NCBI RefSeq assembly: GCF_014876775.1
Contig: NZ_CP062310.1
Location: 496,001-560,000, forward strand
Source of the DNA: Infirmifilum lucidum
Lineage (GTDB): Archaea > Thermoproteota > Thermoprotei > Thermofilales > Thermofilaceae
Length of the DNA: 64,000 nt
Direction of reading: 5' to 3'
Position 1 is the first letter of the stretch; every line of letters begins with the position of its first letter. A model generated the notes under the pieces. It ran no database searches. It was not told the DNA's origin and was given only the letters and a program-made list of their open reading frames with translations. Shown here piece after piece: positions 15,412 to 19,530 of this stretch. The position numbers and the translations under genes were made by a program.

Positions 15412-16635
15412 GTGTATAAGAAGCCTAACCCCAAGCTCTGTACCCAGTGCAAGGGCTCCAGGAGGCTCTGCGGGCTACCGCAGTGCCCCATACTCGTCAA
15501 GCTGAGAGAGCAGTTAAGCCTTAGCAGGCACCTCGGCACGTCTCTTGAATCCCACACCCCTCCCTCAATCCTAGTTGGCGAGTATGGTTACCCATGTGTG
15601 AGAGTGGGGGTCAATCTTCCCGTGGGAGAGGAAGCTCCGGAGCTCTTCGAGAACCCCAGAGAGTGGTGGGGCAGGCTCGGTCTACTGGACATCCTGAGGC
15701 TGAGGGCGCGCCTCGTATACTCGTACGCGAAGTTACCGGTCAAGAGGCTTGGAGGGCGGGTAGTCAACGCCGTGCGGGAGTCCGCCATGTCCTACAAGCC
15801 TGTGGACTCTGAGGCCATCTTTAAGAGGCCCCCGGTGTTTGCGCCGCGCTTCGACCCGCTACTAAAGCCGCTGGGGTTCTCGGGGGAGGCTGAGAGCATA
15901 CGGGTGCTCGGGAACCCCAGTGTTCCGAGGCGTGTAGATAGCCTGGCCCTGGAAAGAGTGAGAGCAGAGAGGGCGATAATTGAGCTTTACCGTGCTGGCT
16001 TTGACGTCTACTATCTCCAGCGCTTACTCTCGGCAGGCGTGCTAGGAGTCGAGAAGAGATTCGTCCCGACGAGGTGGGCTATCACAGCTGTTGACAAAAA
16101 GATTGGCGACTTCCTCCTGGACAGGATACGCGACAGGCCCGAAATCACGGACTACGAGGTCTACCACTCGAACTATATCGGGAACAACTACACACTGGTG
16201 CTGATCCCGGGCCCCTGGAGCATGGAGATGATCGAAGCCTGGCTCCCGGGATCCATGTGGGTGCCAAGCGGAGGAACTGAGATCTACGACATCCACGAGT
16301 GGGAGGATGGCAGGCCGAGCAGGGAAGACGGGGGCTACTACGCTATTCGCGTAGCAGTCCTGGAGAGCCTCGCGGGCCGCGGCAGGCAGGCGGGAGTCCT
16401 CGCAATAAGGGAGATAACCCCGGAGTACTTTGCACCCGTTGGGAACTGGCAGATAAGGGAGAGCGTTAGAAGGGCCCTTAGCGGGAGAGCTGAGAGAGCT
16501 TCAAGCCTCGAGGAGGCATTACAGATTGCCTCGAAGTACCTTCTCATGCCTCTAGACGTCGTAGAGGAGAAGAGCGAGCTCCTGAGGAGGGTTAGGAGGC
16601 AGGCAAGGTTACCTAGCTTCTTGGCTCGAGAGTAG
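15412..16635 (+). CDS. nreA: NreA-type archaeal DNA repair protein
   Basis: The 407-residue protein opens with a zinc-finger-like CTQCKGSRRLCGLPQC and continues with the conserved Nre body (PPSILVGEYGYPCVRVG, FENPREWWG). It ends RQARLPSFLARE, where QARLPSFL fits the PCNA-interacting peptide pattern QxxLxxF. Nre proteins are archaeal and are implicated genetically in repair of DNA damage through PCNA binding; the biochemical activity is not settled as far as I know. The GTG start is about 30 bases after a gtaaatta element, so the mRNA may be leaderless. The end overlaps the convergent CBS regulator by 23 bases. Confidence 0.85.
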   Translation: MYKKPNPKLCTQCKGSRRLCGLPQCPILVKLREQLSLSRHLGTSLESHTPPSILVGEYGYPCVRVGVNLPVGEEAPELFENPREWWGRLGLLDILRLRARLVYSYAKLPVKRLGGRVVNAVRESAMSYKPVDSEAIFKRPPVFAPRFDPLLKPLGFSGEAESIRVLGNPSVPRRVDSLALERVRAERAIIELYRAGFDVYYLQRLLSAGVLGVEKRFVPTRWAITAVDKKIGDFLLDRIRDRPEITDYEVYHSNYIGNNYTLVLIPGPWSMEMIEAWLPGSMWVPSGGTEIYDIHEWEDGRPSREDGGYYAIRVAVLESLAGRGRQAGVLAIREITPEYFAPVGNWQIRESVRRALSGRAERASSLEEALQIASKYLLMPLDVVEEKSELLRRVRRQARLPSFLARE

Positions 16636-17518
16636 TGAGGCTTACCAGCTTGTTGAGCACGTCTGTCCTCGTGACGATCCCCTTAGGCTTCCCTTCCTCG
16701 TCCACGACTACAGCCCTTCCGGTCTTCCTCGAGGCTAGTATCTTCATGATGTCGAGTATGTCGGTGTCCGGCCTTATTACGGGGACGTTCTTCTCCATGT
16801 AGTCCCTAACCCTGGCATCGTGATTGCCGTCGAGGTAGGCTCTAACGATCCGTGAAGCGCCTATGATGCCGCAGAGCCTCTCCTGGCTGTCGACTACCGG
16901 GAGCGCCCGTATATCGTTCTTGAGTAGTAATCTCGCCACACTCGAGAGAGCCTCATCCTCGCGCACTACGATCGGGTTTGGGGTCATGACCTCGGACGCT
17001 GTTATTCTCGGCACGGCCACAAACGTCTCTACGGACAGGAGAACCTCCTTCCTCTTAAAGTCGACGCCCGAGACTATACCTGCAATCATAAGCCTAGTCC
17101 TGGGAGTAGGGCCCACCCTTATCCTCACGCCCTCCCTGAGCTGGTGAATGCTGCCCGTGACTCTAAGAGTTGCCTTGACGCCCGCCGGGTCTGTTAAGCC
17201 GATGAGGTCTAGTTCCAACGCGTATATCCTGCTAGGGTGGTCGTCCACGACTACTTGTAGGGGCTCCCAGAGACGCTCGAGTGCTTGAGGGGCTTTCACG
17301 CACTCCAGCCCCTTCACTGTGGGGACGTAGCCGCCGTTAGGCCCCGTGCGTGCCTCTATCAGGCCTAGTGCCTTCAAGGCGGACATTGAGTTCCTTACAG
17401 TGCCGTCGCTCTTGCCAAGGCGCTCGGCTATCTCAGTGCTCGTGACAGGCCTCTTGTTAGCCTCGTAGAGCTGCACTACGGCGACGAGTAGCTCGTAGAG
17501 GCTCTGCGAAAGCACCAT
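16613..17518 (-). CDS. HTH transcriptional regulator with paired CBS domains
   Basis: The 301-residue protein has an N-terminal winged helix-turn-helix (about residues 1-75, with TSTEIAERLGKSDGTVRNSM). A middle beta-rich linker follows, then two CBS motifs (about 165-290) with MTPNPIVVREDEALSSVA and IRALPVVDSQERLCGIIGAS. CBS pairs bind adenosyl nucleotides, so this is likely an energy- or nucleotide-sensing regulator; its targets are unknown. A cattaatat element about 29 bases upstream suggests a leaderless transcript. Confidence 0.8.
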   Translation of the reverse strand: MVLSQSLYELLVAVVQLYEANKRPVTSTEIAERLGKSDGTVRNSMSALKALGLIEARTGPNGGYVPTVKGLECVKAPQALERLWEPLQVVVDDHPSRIYALELDLIGLTDPAGVKATLRVTGSIHQLREGVRIRVGPTPRTRLMIAGIVSGVDFKRKEVLLSVETFVAVPRITASEVMTPNPIVVREDEALSSVARLLLKNDIRALPVVDSQERLCGIIGASRIVRAYLDGNHDARVRDYMEKNVPVIRPDTDILDIMKILASRKTGRAVVVDEEGKPKGIVTRTDVLNKLVSLTTLEPRS

Positions 17519-17640: not shown

Positions 17641-17991
17641 ATGAGCCTTGCGAGGATACGTTATCTCTCGAGACAGTTCAGGAAGAGGTACGGCGTCATC
17701 GGGCGCGTGGCGTCGAGGTACCTCGAGGCAGGGTTAAGCGTCAGGATAAACCACCCGACCAGGCTCGGCCCTGCACACATAATAGCCCATGGAAACGGGC
17801 AGAAACTAGTAGTTGAAGTGTACTACTCATCAAAACCGCTGGAACCCGATACCGTGCAAAGAGTAGCCGAGAAAGCAAAGCTGCTCAGAGCAAAGCCAGT
17901 AGTAGCACTGTACGGAAAGACCCCCGCGACGAAGAGGGCCCTCGAAGTGGCCACCAAGCTAGGCGTGAAGATAAAGAGGATCAGGCCTTGA
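17641..17991 (+). CDS. Small basic protein, possibly nuclease-fold, unknown function
   Basis: A 116-residue basic protein. Its order (helical N-terminus, NHPTRLGPAHIIAHGNGQKL, then the strand LVVEVYYS, a helix and VVALYG) is reminiscent of minimal restriction-endonuclease-like folds such as the archaeal RecB-like or YraN families, but the acidic Asp/Glu-x-Lys active site is not clearly present (VEVYYS lacks the lysine). I cannot name the family with confidence. It sits 43 bases upstream of the tRNA-Tyr gene on the same strand. Confidence 0.6.
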   Translation: MSLARIRYLSRQFRKRYGVIGRVASRYLEAGLSVRINHPTRLGPAHIIAHGNGQKLVVEVYYSSKPLEPDTVQRVAEKAKLLRAKPVVALYGKTPATKRALEVATKLGVKIKRIRP

Positions 17992-18034: not shown

Positions 18035-18201
18035 CCCCGGGTAGCGTAGCGGTATCGCGGCCGGCTGTAGGTCGACCCCGCACGGCGACCGGGGCTAACA
18101 GGCCCCTCGTATGAGACCGTGCCAGCCGGCTGGAGACCGGCAGTGGCGGGCCCGCAATGGGCCGTGCGCCAAGGTCCCGGGTTCGAATCCCGGCCCGGGG
18201 A
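18035..18201 (+). tRNA. tRNA-Tyr (GUA) with two putative introns
   Basis: Acceptor strands 18035-18041 (CCCCGGG) and 18194-18200 (CCCGGGG) pair fully. The C1-G72 pair and A73 are the archaeal tRNA-Tyr identity set. The D arm is at 18044-18058. The anticodon stem GCCGG at 18060-18064 pairs with CCGGC at 18137-18141, and the loop reads CUGUAGA after removal of a 65-base intron (18069-18133, or equivalently 18071-18135). A bulge-helix-bulge can be drawn: GTA bulge, GGTC (18070-18073) paired with GACC (18135-18138), and GGA bulge. The T arm is CCGGG-TTCGAAT-CCCGG. A second 30-base insert around 18144-18173 interrupts the variable region; its exact ends are ambiguous because AG is repeated. CCA is not encoded. 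Confidence 0.85.
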
Positions 18202-18789: not shown

Positions 18790-19530
18790 TTAGAGTAGAT
18801 CTATACCGCATTTTAACTGTTCTAGCCATCTGAGAGCTTTTTGGACGTTTTCCCTCCCTCTGATTATCGCACCGTGTTGTGGGACTATAGCCTCTACGTC
18901 CAGCCCTCTCACTCTGTTCAGCCAAGCCTGGATTGCCTTGTTGCCTGCCATGTACCTCCTGTGGAAAGGCTCCATGTACTGGACGTGCGCCTCGAAGTCC
19001 GCGACGAAGTCATAGTCCTGGCTCTCGGGCGTCAGGGAGGCAAATAAGTCGCCTGAGAAGAGCACTCTGGAGCAGGGGTCGTATATCTGGAAGTTTCCGG
19101 GGGAGTGGAGGAAGTGTGCGGGGACGAGTTTAAGGGTGCAGGCTCCTAGGGCTAGCTCGGCGCCGCTGTCCGGCACTGAGTAGAACCTCTCTGAGGGGTT
19201 TGTCTCTGCTGGGAACAGGTGTGGTATGAAGCGCGCCCAGACCTCTGGCAGGACGATTTTAGCGTTGGGCAGTGCCGTGTACCAGCTCGCCGCTGCTCCG
19301 ACGATGTCAGGATCCTGGTGGGAGAAGAAGACGTACTTTATCTTGGGGGCTGGCACGACGAGCGAGATTTCGGAGACGAGCTTCGGGAACACGACGCGCC
19401 CGGAGGGGTCTGCCAGCAGGCCTTCACCCGAGTCGGCTATTACAAGCTGGTTGGCCTGTACGTAGCCCCTAGGCGTGAAGCCTCTGAAAACAACGACCTT
19501 ATGCTTTTCATCAGTGTACAGCGGTATCAT
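18790..19530 (-). CDS. ODP-type metallo-beta-lactamase-fold protein (FprA-like diiron domain)
   Basis: The 246-residue protein matches the diiron domain of flavodiiron proteins without the flavodoxin part. Candidate metal ligands are His71-x-Asp73-x-Asp75 (HQDPD), His139 or His142 (AHFLHSPGNF), Asp161 (FSGDLF) and His219 (PQHG). The HxDxD form, in place of HxHxDH, marks the ODP (oxygen-binding diiron protein) group. A likely role is oxygen or NO sensing or reduction in an anaerobe. With no fused flavodoxin, an external electron donor would be needed. A TATA box at 19553-19560 predicts a leaderless mRNA. Confidence 0.75.
   Translation of the reverse strand: MIPLYTDEKHKVVVFRGFTPRGYVQANQLVIADSGEGLLADPSGRVVFPKLVSEISLVVPAPKIKYVFFSHQDPDIVGAAASWYTALPNAKIVLPEVWARFIPHLFPAETNPSERFYSVPDSGAELALGACTLKLVPAHFLHSPGNFQIYDPCSRVLFSGDLFASLTPESQDYDFVADFEAHVQYMEPFHRRYMAGNKAIQAWLNRVRGLDVEAIVPQHGAIIRGRENVQKALRWLEQLKCGIDLL

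Follow-up and report, generated by a model that had tools for sequence, protein, structure and literature searches.

The 65-nt intron at position 37/38 of the tRNA-Tyr(GUA) gene described here is probably an H/ACA-like guide embedded in the pre-tRNA, placing the U35 of its own molecule for pseudouridylation before splicing. The gene lies at 18035-18201 (+ strand) of the window, the 64,000-nt stretch of DNA that was analysed, and carries, besides this intron (intron 1), an insert of 30 nt within its variable region (intron 2; Table 1). Intron 1 is H/ACA-like in layout, and because it has neither a lower stem nor an ACA box, it is not a member of that class by the full definition. In the proposed modification fold, CAGCCGGC near the intron end would pair with exon positions 27-34 and a mini-hairpin would start at G37, leaving U35-A36 unpaired beneath the kink-turn stem like the target U-N in an H/ACA pocket. 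Modification would fall to the H/ACA machinery, with Cbf5 and with L7Ae bound to the kink-turn. A second, splicing fold would restore the anticodon stem (27-31/39-43), pair positions 32-35 with 18130-18133 as a bulge-helix-bulge (BHB), and allow removal of the intron. The guide helix and the BHB fold use the same exon bases and are mutually exclusive, so that modification would precede splicing. From sequence comparison we infer that the proteins bind, that U35 becomes pseudouridine, that the guide acts in cis and not in trans, and that modification comes first; the case for cis action comes from the mini-hairpin, a weak element in this species.

Table 1. Features of the tRNA-Tyr locus, in window coordinates.
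Feature	Coordinates	Strand	Basis or remark
tRNA promoter-like motif GCGAAAAGCTGATAAA	17995-18010	+	Sequence; usual distance to gene
Exon 1, tRNA positions 1-37	18035-18070	+	Cloverleaf by hand; alignment with relatives
Putative target segment, positions 27-34, GCCGGCUG	18060-18067	+	Perfect 8-nt complement of 18123-18130; covariation
U35-A36, proposed modified U and unpaired N at junction	18068-18069	+	Unpaired by both flanking helices; inferred target
Mini-hairpin, G37 to nucleotide abutting GA stem (putative 5' guide in cis)	18070-18079	+	Weak here: G37-C79, G-C
Intron 1, 65 nt, position 37/38	18071-18135	+	BHB; comparison with relatives
GA stem, 5' strand GCACGGC	18080-18086	+	97.4% of cells paired; covariation
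Kink-turn GA, unbulged strand	18087-18088	+	Sequence comparison of introns
Apical stem-loop, C89-G109 closing pair, GGGGC/GCCCC	18089-18109	+	Closing pair standard in 30/34
Kink-turn 3-nt loop UAU and GA	18110-18114	+	Sequence comparison of introns
GA stem, 3' strand, the 8 nt that separate UGA from the guide	18115-18122	+	8-nt spacing in set
Putative 3' guide CAGCCGGC, complementary to 27-34	18123-18130	+	Pairing; covariation
BHB strand pairing with 32-35 in splicing fold	18130-18133	+	3/4 pairs here
Exon 2, positions 38-45	18136-18143	+	Anticodon stem CCGGC; comparison with relatives
Intron 2, 30 nt, variable region, about 45/46	18144-18173	+	Comparison with relatives; BHB weak
Exon 3, positions 46-73	18174-18201	+	T arm, acceptor strand, discriminator A

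Identity and Setting of the tRNA-Tyr Gene

The acceptor stem CCCCGGG/CCCGGGG (18035-18041/18194-18200) contains the pair C1-G72 and is followed by a discriminator A at 18201, the T arm (18177-18193) reads CCGGG-UUCGAAU-CCCGG, and the anticodon stem GCCGG/CCGGC holds the anticodon GUA at 18067-18069. This cloverleaf, together with comparison with relatives, bears out the sequence-only reading of the locus as a tRNA-Tyr gene with two introns. With a tRNA-Tyr half-gene model, the locus was the sole tRNA-Tyr match in the 1.63-Mb assembly of this Thermofilum-like archaeon. Both ARAGORN and Rfam missed the gene, Rfam likewise returned nothing on it at a relaxed threshold, and blast with the whole gene matched mostly T arms. 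The gene is collinear, in contrast to the permuted gene of T. pendens, whose published coordinate (892,743; PMC3218864) falls on the homologous gene.

The promoter-like motif GCGAAAAGCTGATAAA also lies 5' of two other tRNA genes of the same genome (L185, L186). A 116-aa ORF with no Pfam match (17641-17991, + strand) is found just 5' of the tRNA-Tyr gene, and the neighboring genes encode an Nre protein (15412-16635), an HTH-CBS regulator (16613-17518, - strand) and an ODP-family protein of the beta-lactamase fold (18790-19530, - strand).

Shifting the junction of intron 1 by as much as 2 nt leaves the product unchanged. The junction of intron 2 may slide by 1 nt, and its cut was placed by comparison only: a relative without a variable-region insert (L071) reads CCGGC-AGGTC-CCGGG, and mature positions 44-48 were here taken as AGGTC. 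At intron 2, no convincing four-pair BHB helix was found. When relatives were compared for both introns, as had been suggested, intron 1 recurred in 19 families, and intron 2, absent in L071 and replaced by a different insert in L072, was not conserved. Other inserts were seen among relatives. Four loci (L075, L077, L078, L082) have another insert immediately 3' of the intron; it contains brief repeats of the strand of the anticodon stem (GAAACCG...GAAACCGG in L075) and resembles one more intron, located in the 3' anticodon stem. The tRNA-Tyr at L105:1501-1632 has an extra insert of ~30 nt in the D arm.

The Proposed Guide Helix

The complement of positions 27-34 follows directly on the upper stem and pairs perfectly up to G34, directly 5' of U35, which is the arrangement of the 3' guide in archaeal H/ACA RNAs. 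Its register can be fixed by the kink-turn stem alone, as the 8 nt starting 8 nt after UGA, and in this register the intron segment formed a mean of 6.78 of 8 pairs with positions 27-34 (49 distinct introns, 19 families), compared with means of 1.1-4.4 pairs at 16 other offsets in the same introns. When introns were aligned without guide pairs, 94.4% of cells in the guide helix were paired, as opposed to at most 49% when the strand was slid by 1-3 columns. Positions 27-29 were paired in 108 of 147 cells (e.g., GCC/GGC, CCC/GGG, and CUC/GAG), where the shuffled maximum was 105, in a test that, like our other shuffle tests and covariation counts, ignores relatedness. Position 27 was seen as C-G, G-C and U-A, and position 28 as C-G and U-A; the sequence of the helix is otherwise largely invariant, and most of its covariation comes from these two positions. 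The covariance model, which recovered the intron in many families of the phylum, was built from six relatives using D-arm and upper-stem pairs and no guide pairs, and all six training sequences carry CAGCC, which helps to find similar introns.

In ViennaRNA calculations on this pre-tRNA, the helix between positions 27-34 and the intron had a probability of 0.76-0.99 per pair at 80°C, and was favored over the anticodon stem even at 80-90°C. Across the set, energy models favored the guide helix in 19 of 51 cases and the GA stem in 31 of 51. The probability of the GA stem here was at most 0.21, with other pairing of the region preferred, a low value that we attribute to the existence of this alternative pairing and to energy models that lack terms for the kink-turn or for stabilization by L7Ae.

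The Kink-Turn Stem and the Mini-Hairpin

At the tRNA-Tyr loci of relatives, G37 is followed by a common layout, consisting of a short hairpin, a stem, GA, an apical hairpin, a 3-nt loop, a second GA completing the kink-turn, 8 nt of stem, CAGCC or a similar sequence, and the 3' splice site. The GA stem ends exactly where the guide starts (UGA plus 8 nt). It is 97.4% paired, with a covariation score of 0.94 against 0.25 after shuffling, and among 34 introns with the strict GA...UGA form, the closing pair after the exact 3-nt loop was paired in 30, as C-G, G-C, U-A, A-U, or U-G. Tandem G-A pairs of the kind expected for the kink-turn of an H/ACA RNA are present here (C86-GA-C89 / G109-UAU-GA). 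In productive folds of archaeal guides, the GA stem between pocket and kink-turn measures 10 bp when the second G-A pair is included in the count (PMC4652768); here the 3' strand is 10 nt, with 9 pairs and one bulge. The 5' strand is one nucleotide short in this genome and one nucleotide is bulged opposite, a form of GA stem also described in PMC4652768; 8 pairs and two G-A pairs without a bulge are found in several families (L084, L087, L096, L111, and L112).

Other parts of the H/ACA class are missing at this intron. No lower stem of 7-9 bp was found, and the ACA (ANA) box is absent at 14-16 nt from the GA stem, where 18137-18139 reads CCG; an AGA is located at 18134-18136, 11 nt from the stem. 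A box C/D guide of the tRNA-Trp type was ruled out, as neither RUGAUGA nor CUGA occurs within 18071-18135.

On the other side of the target, the segment that links G37 to the GA stem ends in C, opposite G37, in 35 of 36 distinct cases. A Watson-Crick pair forms the second step of the resulting mini-hairpin in 31 of 36, where shuffling gave a mean of 12.3 and at most 23. The mini-hairpin also covaries with the base of the intron beside the invariant G37. In this window the mini-hairpin, a candidate counterpart of the 5' guide that in H/ACA RNAs pairs with bases 3' of the target U-N, comprises only 2 bp. The guide helix and mini-hairpin leave U35-A36 as the sole unpaired nucleotides of the target strand at a three-way junction, and it is at such a junction that archaeal H/ACA guides hold the target U-N (PMC4652768).

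Alternatively, the same H/ACA-like guide might act in trans, with the excised intron, linear or circular, modifying other pre-tRNA-Tyr molecules or mature tRNA-Tyr. The intron would retain its complete guide region after excision, and action in trans is reported for the guide in the tRNA-Trp intron of H. volcanii (PMC11408192). Against this, the mini-hairpin connects exon G37 with the nucleotide next to the GA stem and covaries with the base beside G37, a pattern that makes most sense before splicing, and the excised intron here has no 5' guide against mature positions 37-40 abutting the GA stem. We consider action in trans unlikely.

The Proposed Splicing Fold and Candidate Enzymes

The precursor can form a canonical 37/38 BHB with a 5-bp outer helix and 3 of 4 central pairs, and a BHB with at least 3 of 4 central pairs was found in 46 of 48 related introns. 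The intron strand that pairs with positions 32-35, just 5' of the 3' splice site, is usually GCAG or a variant. This BHB takes the place of the one drawn previously from GGTC (18070-18073) and GACC (18135-18138), a pairing that leaves no flanking helices.

The assembly encodes Cbf5, and also a TruD/aPus7 homologue with the catalytic KD, which could make pseudouridine 35 without a guide. An argument for the guide from the absence of aPus7 fails accordingly. In P. abyssi, aPus7 is reported to be blocked by the change A36G. The TruD residue after KD is T here, is K or R in solved homologues, and varies among relatives; it is basic in families f12 and f18, both of which have the intron module, so this residue decides nothing.

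It is also conceivable that intron 1 is an ordinary 37/38 intron, in which the complementarity tunes the splicing fold or the intron end is a duplicated 3' strand of the anticodon stem, while TruD/aPus7 makes pseudouridine 35, perhaps in an intron-dependent manner like eukaryotic Pus7. The encoded TruD with its catalytic Asp kept, the BHB pairing in 46 of 48 introns, and the usual basic residue in module-bearing f12 and f18 are consistent with this view, as is the identity of the guide CCGGC with the strand 39-43, which also follows from the pairing of both with positions 27-31. Such an intron would leave unexplained the kink-turn, the fixed 8-nt spacing between UGA and guide, the end of the helix at G34, and the mini-hairpin, and the helix between 27-34 and the guide excludes the BHB fold and would be no help to splicing. 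We regard this explanation as quite unlikely, and an H/ACA-like guide acting on its own precursor as the preferred one.

The Near-Copy of the Anticodon Arm

The 5' exon end (18060-18070, GCCGGCTGTAG) and the intron end (18125-18135, GCCGGCTGGAG) are identical at 10 of 11 bases, and the repeat described in the sequence-only reading was thus recovered at its exact coordinates and with the same sequences. A repeat of such quality was found in 0.11% of shuffled introns, indicating that it does not arise by chance. It had been taken as a possible trace of intron insertion or movement, an interpretation that comparison does not sustain: a direct copy (at least 9/11) is present in 3 of 48 related introns, and the reverse complement (at least 7/8 pairs) in 32 of 48. 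The reverse complement is also kept in species with a non-palindromic anticodon stem and no direct repeat. In family f44, where the stem CUCGG is non-palindromic and the guide is CGGCCGAG, the direct repeat is gone and the complement stays. The guide looks like the exon because GCCGGC is palindromic, so that the reverse complement of the stem resembles the stem. By this comparison, the near-copy appears to be a by-product of complementarity to the palindrome GCCGGC, and neither a conserved feature nor an insertion trace. An assembly error behind the repeat was ruled out, since the intron is conserved in 19 families.

As had been stated, the gene keeps GUA, and GGA would result were splicing shifted into the repeat. 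Splicing to a tRNA with GGA was ruled out by C1-G72, A73 and a separate tRNA-Ser(GGA) gene at ~957,048 of the assembly, which makes a GGA reading of this locus unneeded; the characters of a tRNA-Ser(GGA), with its class II variable arm, are not found here, given C1-G72, A73, and the 5-nt variable loop in L071. It is hardly credible that the near-copy records the insertion or mobility of an intron, or serves alternative splicing to the GGA (Ser) anticodon, despite the 10/11 identity and its rarity in shuffled introns, in view of the few direct copies among related introns, the fit of C1-G72 and A73 to Tyr, the separate Ser(GGA) gene, and a BHB that gives 37/38.

Distribution Among Archaea

The intron design was found in 19 families of the phylum (49 distinct introns). 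It was seen, in some cases in weaker form, in Thermoproteia families f1, f2, f4, f5, f7, f8, f10, f11, and f12 and in families f16, f18, f37, f39, f41, f43, f44, f46, f55, f58, and f66 of other classes, and was not found at the tRNA-Tyr loci of relatives in f9, f13, f17, f22, f23, and others. A pattern scan of named genomes added Methanomethylicota, Culexarchaeum, many Woesearchaeota, and one Helarchaeota (Asgard) record. The 38 archaeal tRNA-Tyr genes with the pattern had a mean of 6.8 of 8 guide pairs, compared with 4.7 of 8 for 25 chance matches in bacteria, the CAG being fixed by the scan pattern in both. Judged by eye, the Helarchaeota intron has 8 pairs and two G-A pairs. Loci with the layout in Woesearchaeota and Helarchaeota are L204, L209, L211, L214, L216, L227, L233, L236, L238, L246, L250, and L260. 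The occurrence in these two groups could reflect either great age or horizontal transfer of the element.

In Pyrobaculum-like tRNA-Tyr introns, CAGCC directly follows the 5' splice site (UGUAG-N-CAGCC) and precedes a GC-rich hairpin (L140-L145, L099, L102, L109, and L110 in f9 and f13; L117, L120, and L132 in f59). The hairpin has GACA or AACA at the start of its loop in f9 and f13. From its sequence, the form in f9, f13, and f59 appears to be a different arrangement using the same complementarity to positions 30-34. An intact tRNA-Tyr with the intron described here was not found in relatives G002 and G003 (same genus), G008, G010, and G013, where extra introns or permutation may hide the gene.

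A broader proposal, extending over Thermoproteota, Methanomethylicota, Woesearchaeota, and at least one Asgard archaeon, is that tRNA-Tyr introns across archaea would be cis-acting H/ACA guides, with obligatory modification of U35 before refolding into the BHB, and that the trans guide of Sulfolobales would be a derived form that moved out of the intron. We see the chances for and against this generalization as evenly balanced.

Discussion

If the proposed role of intron 1 is correct, it would provide a function for a widespread archaeal tRNA intron and a reason for its retention. Guide and target would be combined in one molecule, with a built-in switch ordering modification and splicing, and the intron would be the H/ACA counterpart of the C/D intron of tRNA-Trp. 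The present gene also serves as an example of a tRNA-Tyr gene that escapes ARAGORN and Rfam.

In the available parts of the open-licence literature, we found no paper that describes a tRNA-Tyr intron as carrying an H/ACA guide. In S. solfataricus, a guide RNA directs H/ACA modification of U35 in tRNA-Tyr (PMC4652768; PMC7991803). According to these papers, the trans-acting H/ACA guide sRNA Sso1 serves U35 of pre-tRNA-Tyr in Sulfolobales and Aeropyrum (Muller et al., 2009, cited therein). Intron 1 resembles Sso1, as far as it is described there, in the target nucleotide, in a kink-turn stem with the guide immediately after it, and in the proposed enzyme. Sso1 differs in being a guide RNA of fold type 10/5/9 with a lower stem, whereas here the putative guide lies inside the intron of its own target and has no lower stem or ACA box. 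The Pyrobaculum H/ACA-like sRNAs sR203-sR210, as described in PMC4652768, also have an absent or truncated lower stem, and in some of them a nucleotide bulges out one pair beneath the tandem G-A, as in the window; they are treated there as separate guide RNAs and examined chiefly for rRNA targets, unlike the intron-embedded candidate with its tRNA target.

Introns linked to modification of their own tRNA are known. The box C/D guide in the pre-tRNA-Trp intron of Haloferax and Pyrococcus (PMC4090602; PMC6313347; PMC11408192) directs 2'-O-methylation through its C/D boxes, whereas intron 1 has no C/D boxes and carries its kink-turn in an H/ACA-type stem. In eukaryotes, the tRNA-Tyr intron is linked to pseudouridine 35 before splicing, as proposed here, but Pus7 is a protein-only enzyme that uses no guide RNA (PMC11408192). 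The tRNA-Tyr(GUA) of T. pendens has a 37/38 intron that is homologous to intron 1 and shares its kink-turn, mini-hairpin, and putative guide (CAGCCGGA vs UCCGGCUG), in a gene that, unlike the present one, is permuted at 59/60; the accessible text of the report on that gene mentions its intron and no guide in it (Chan et al., 2011; PMC3218864).
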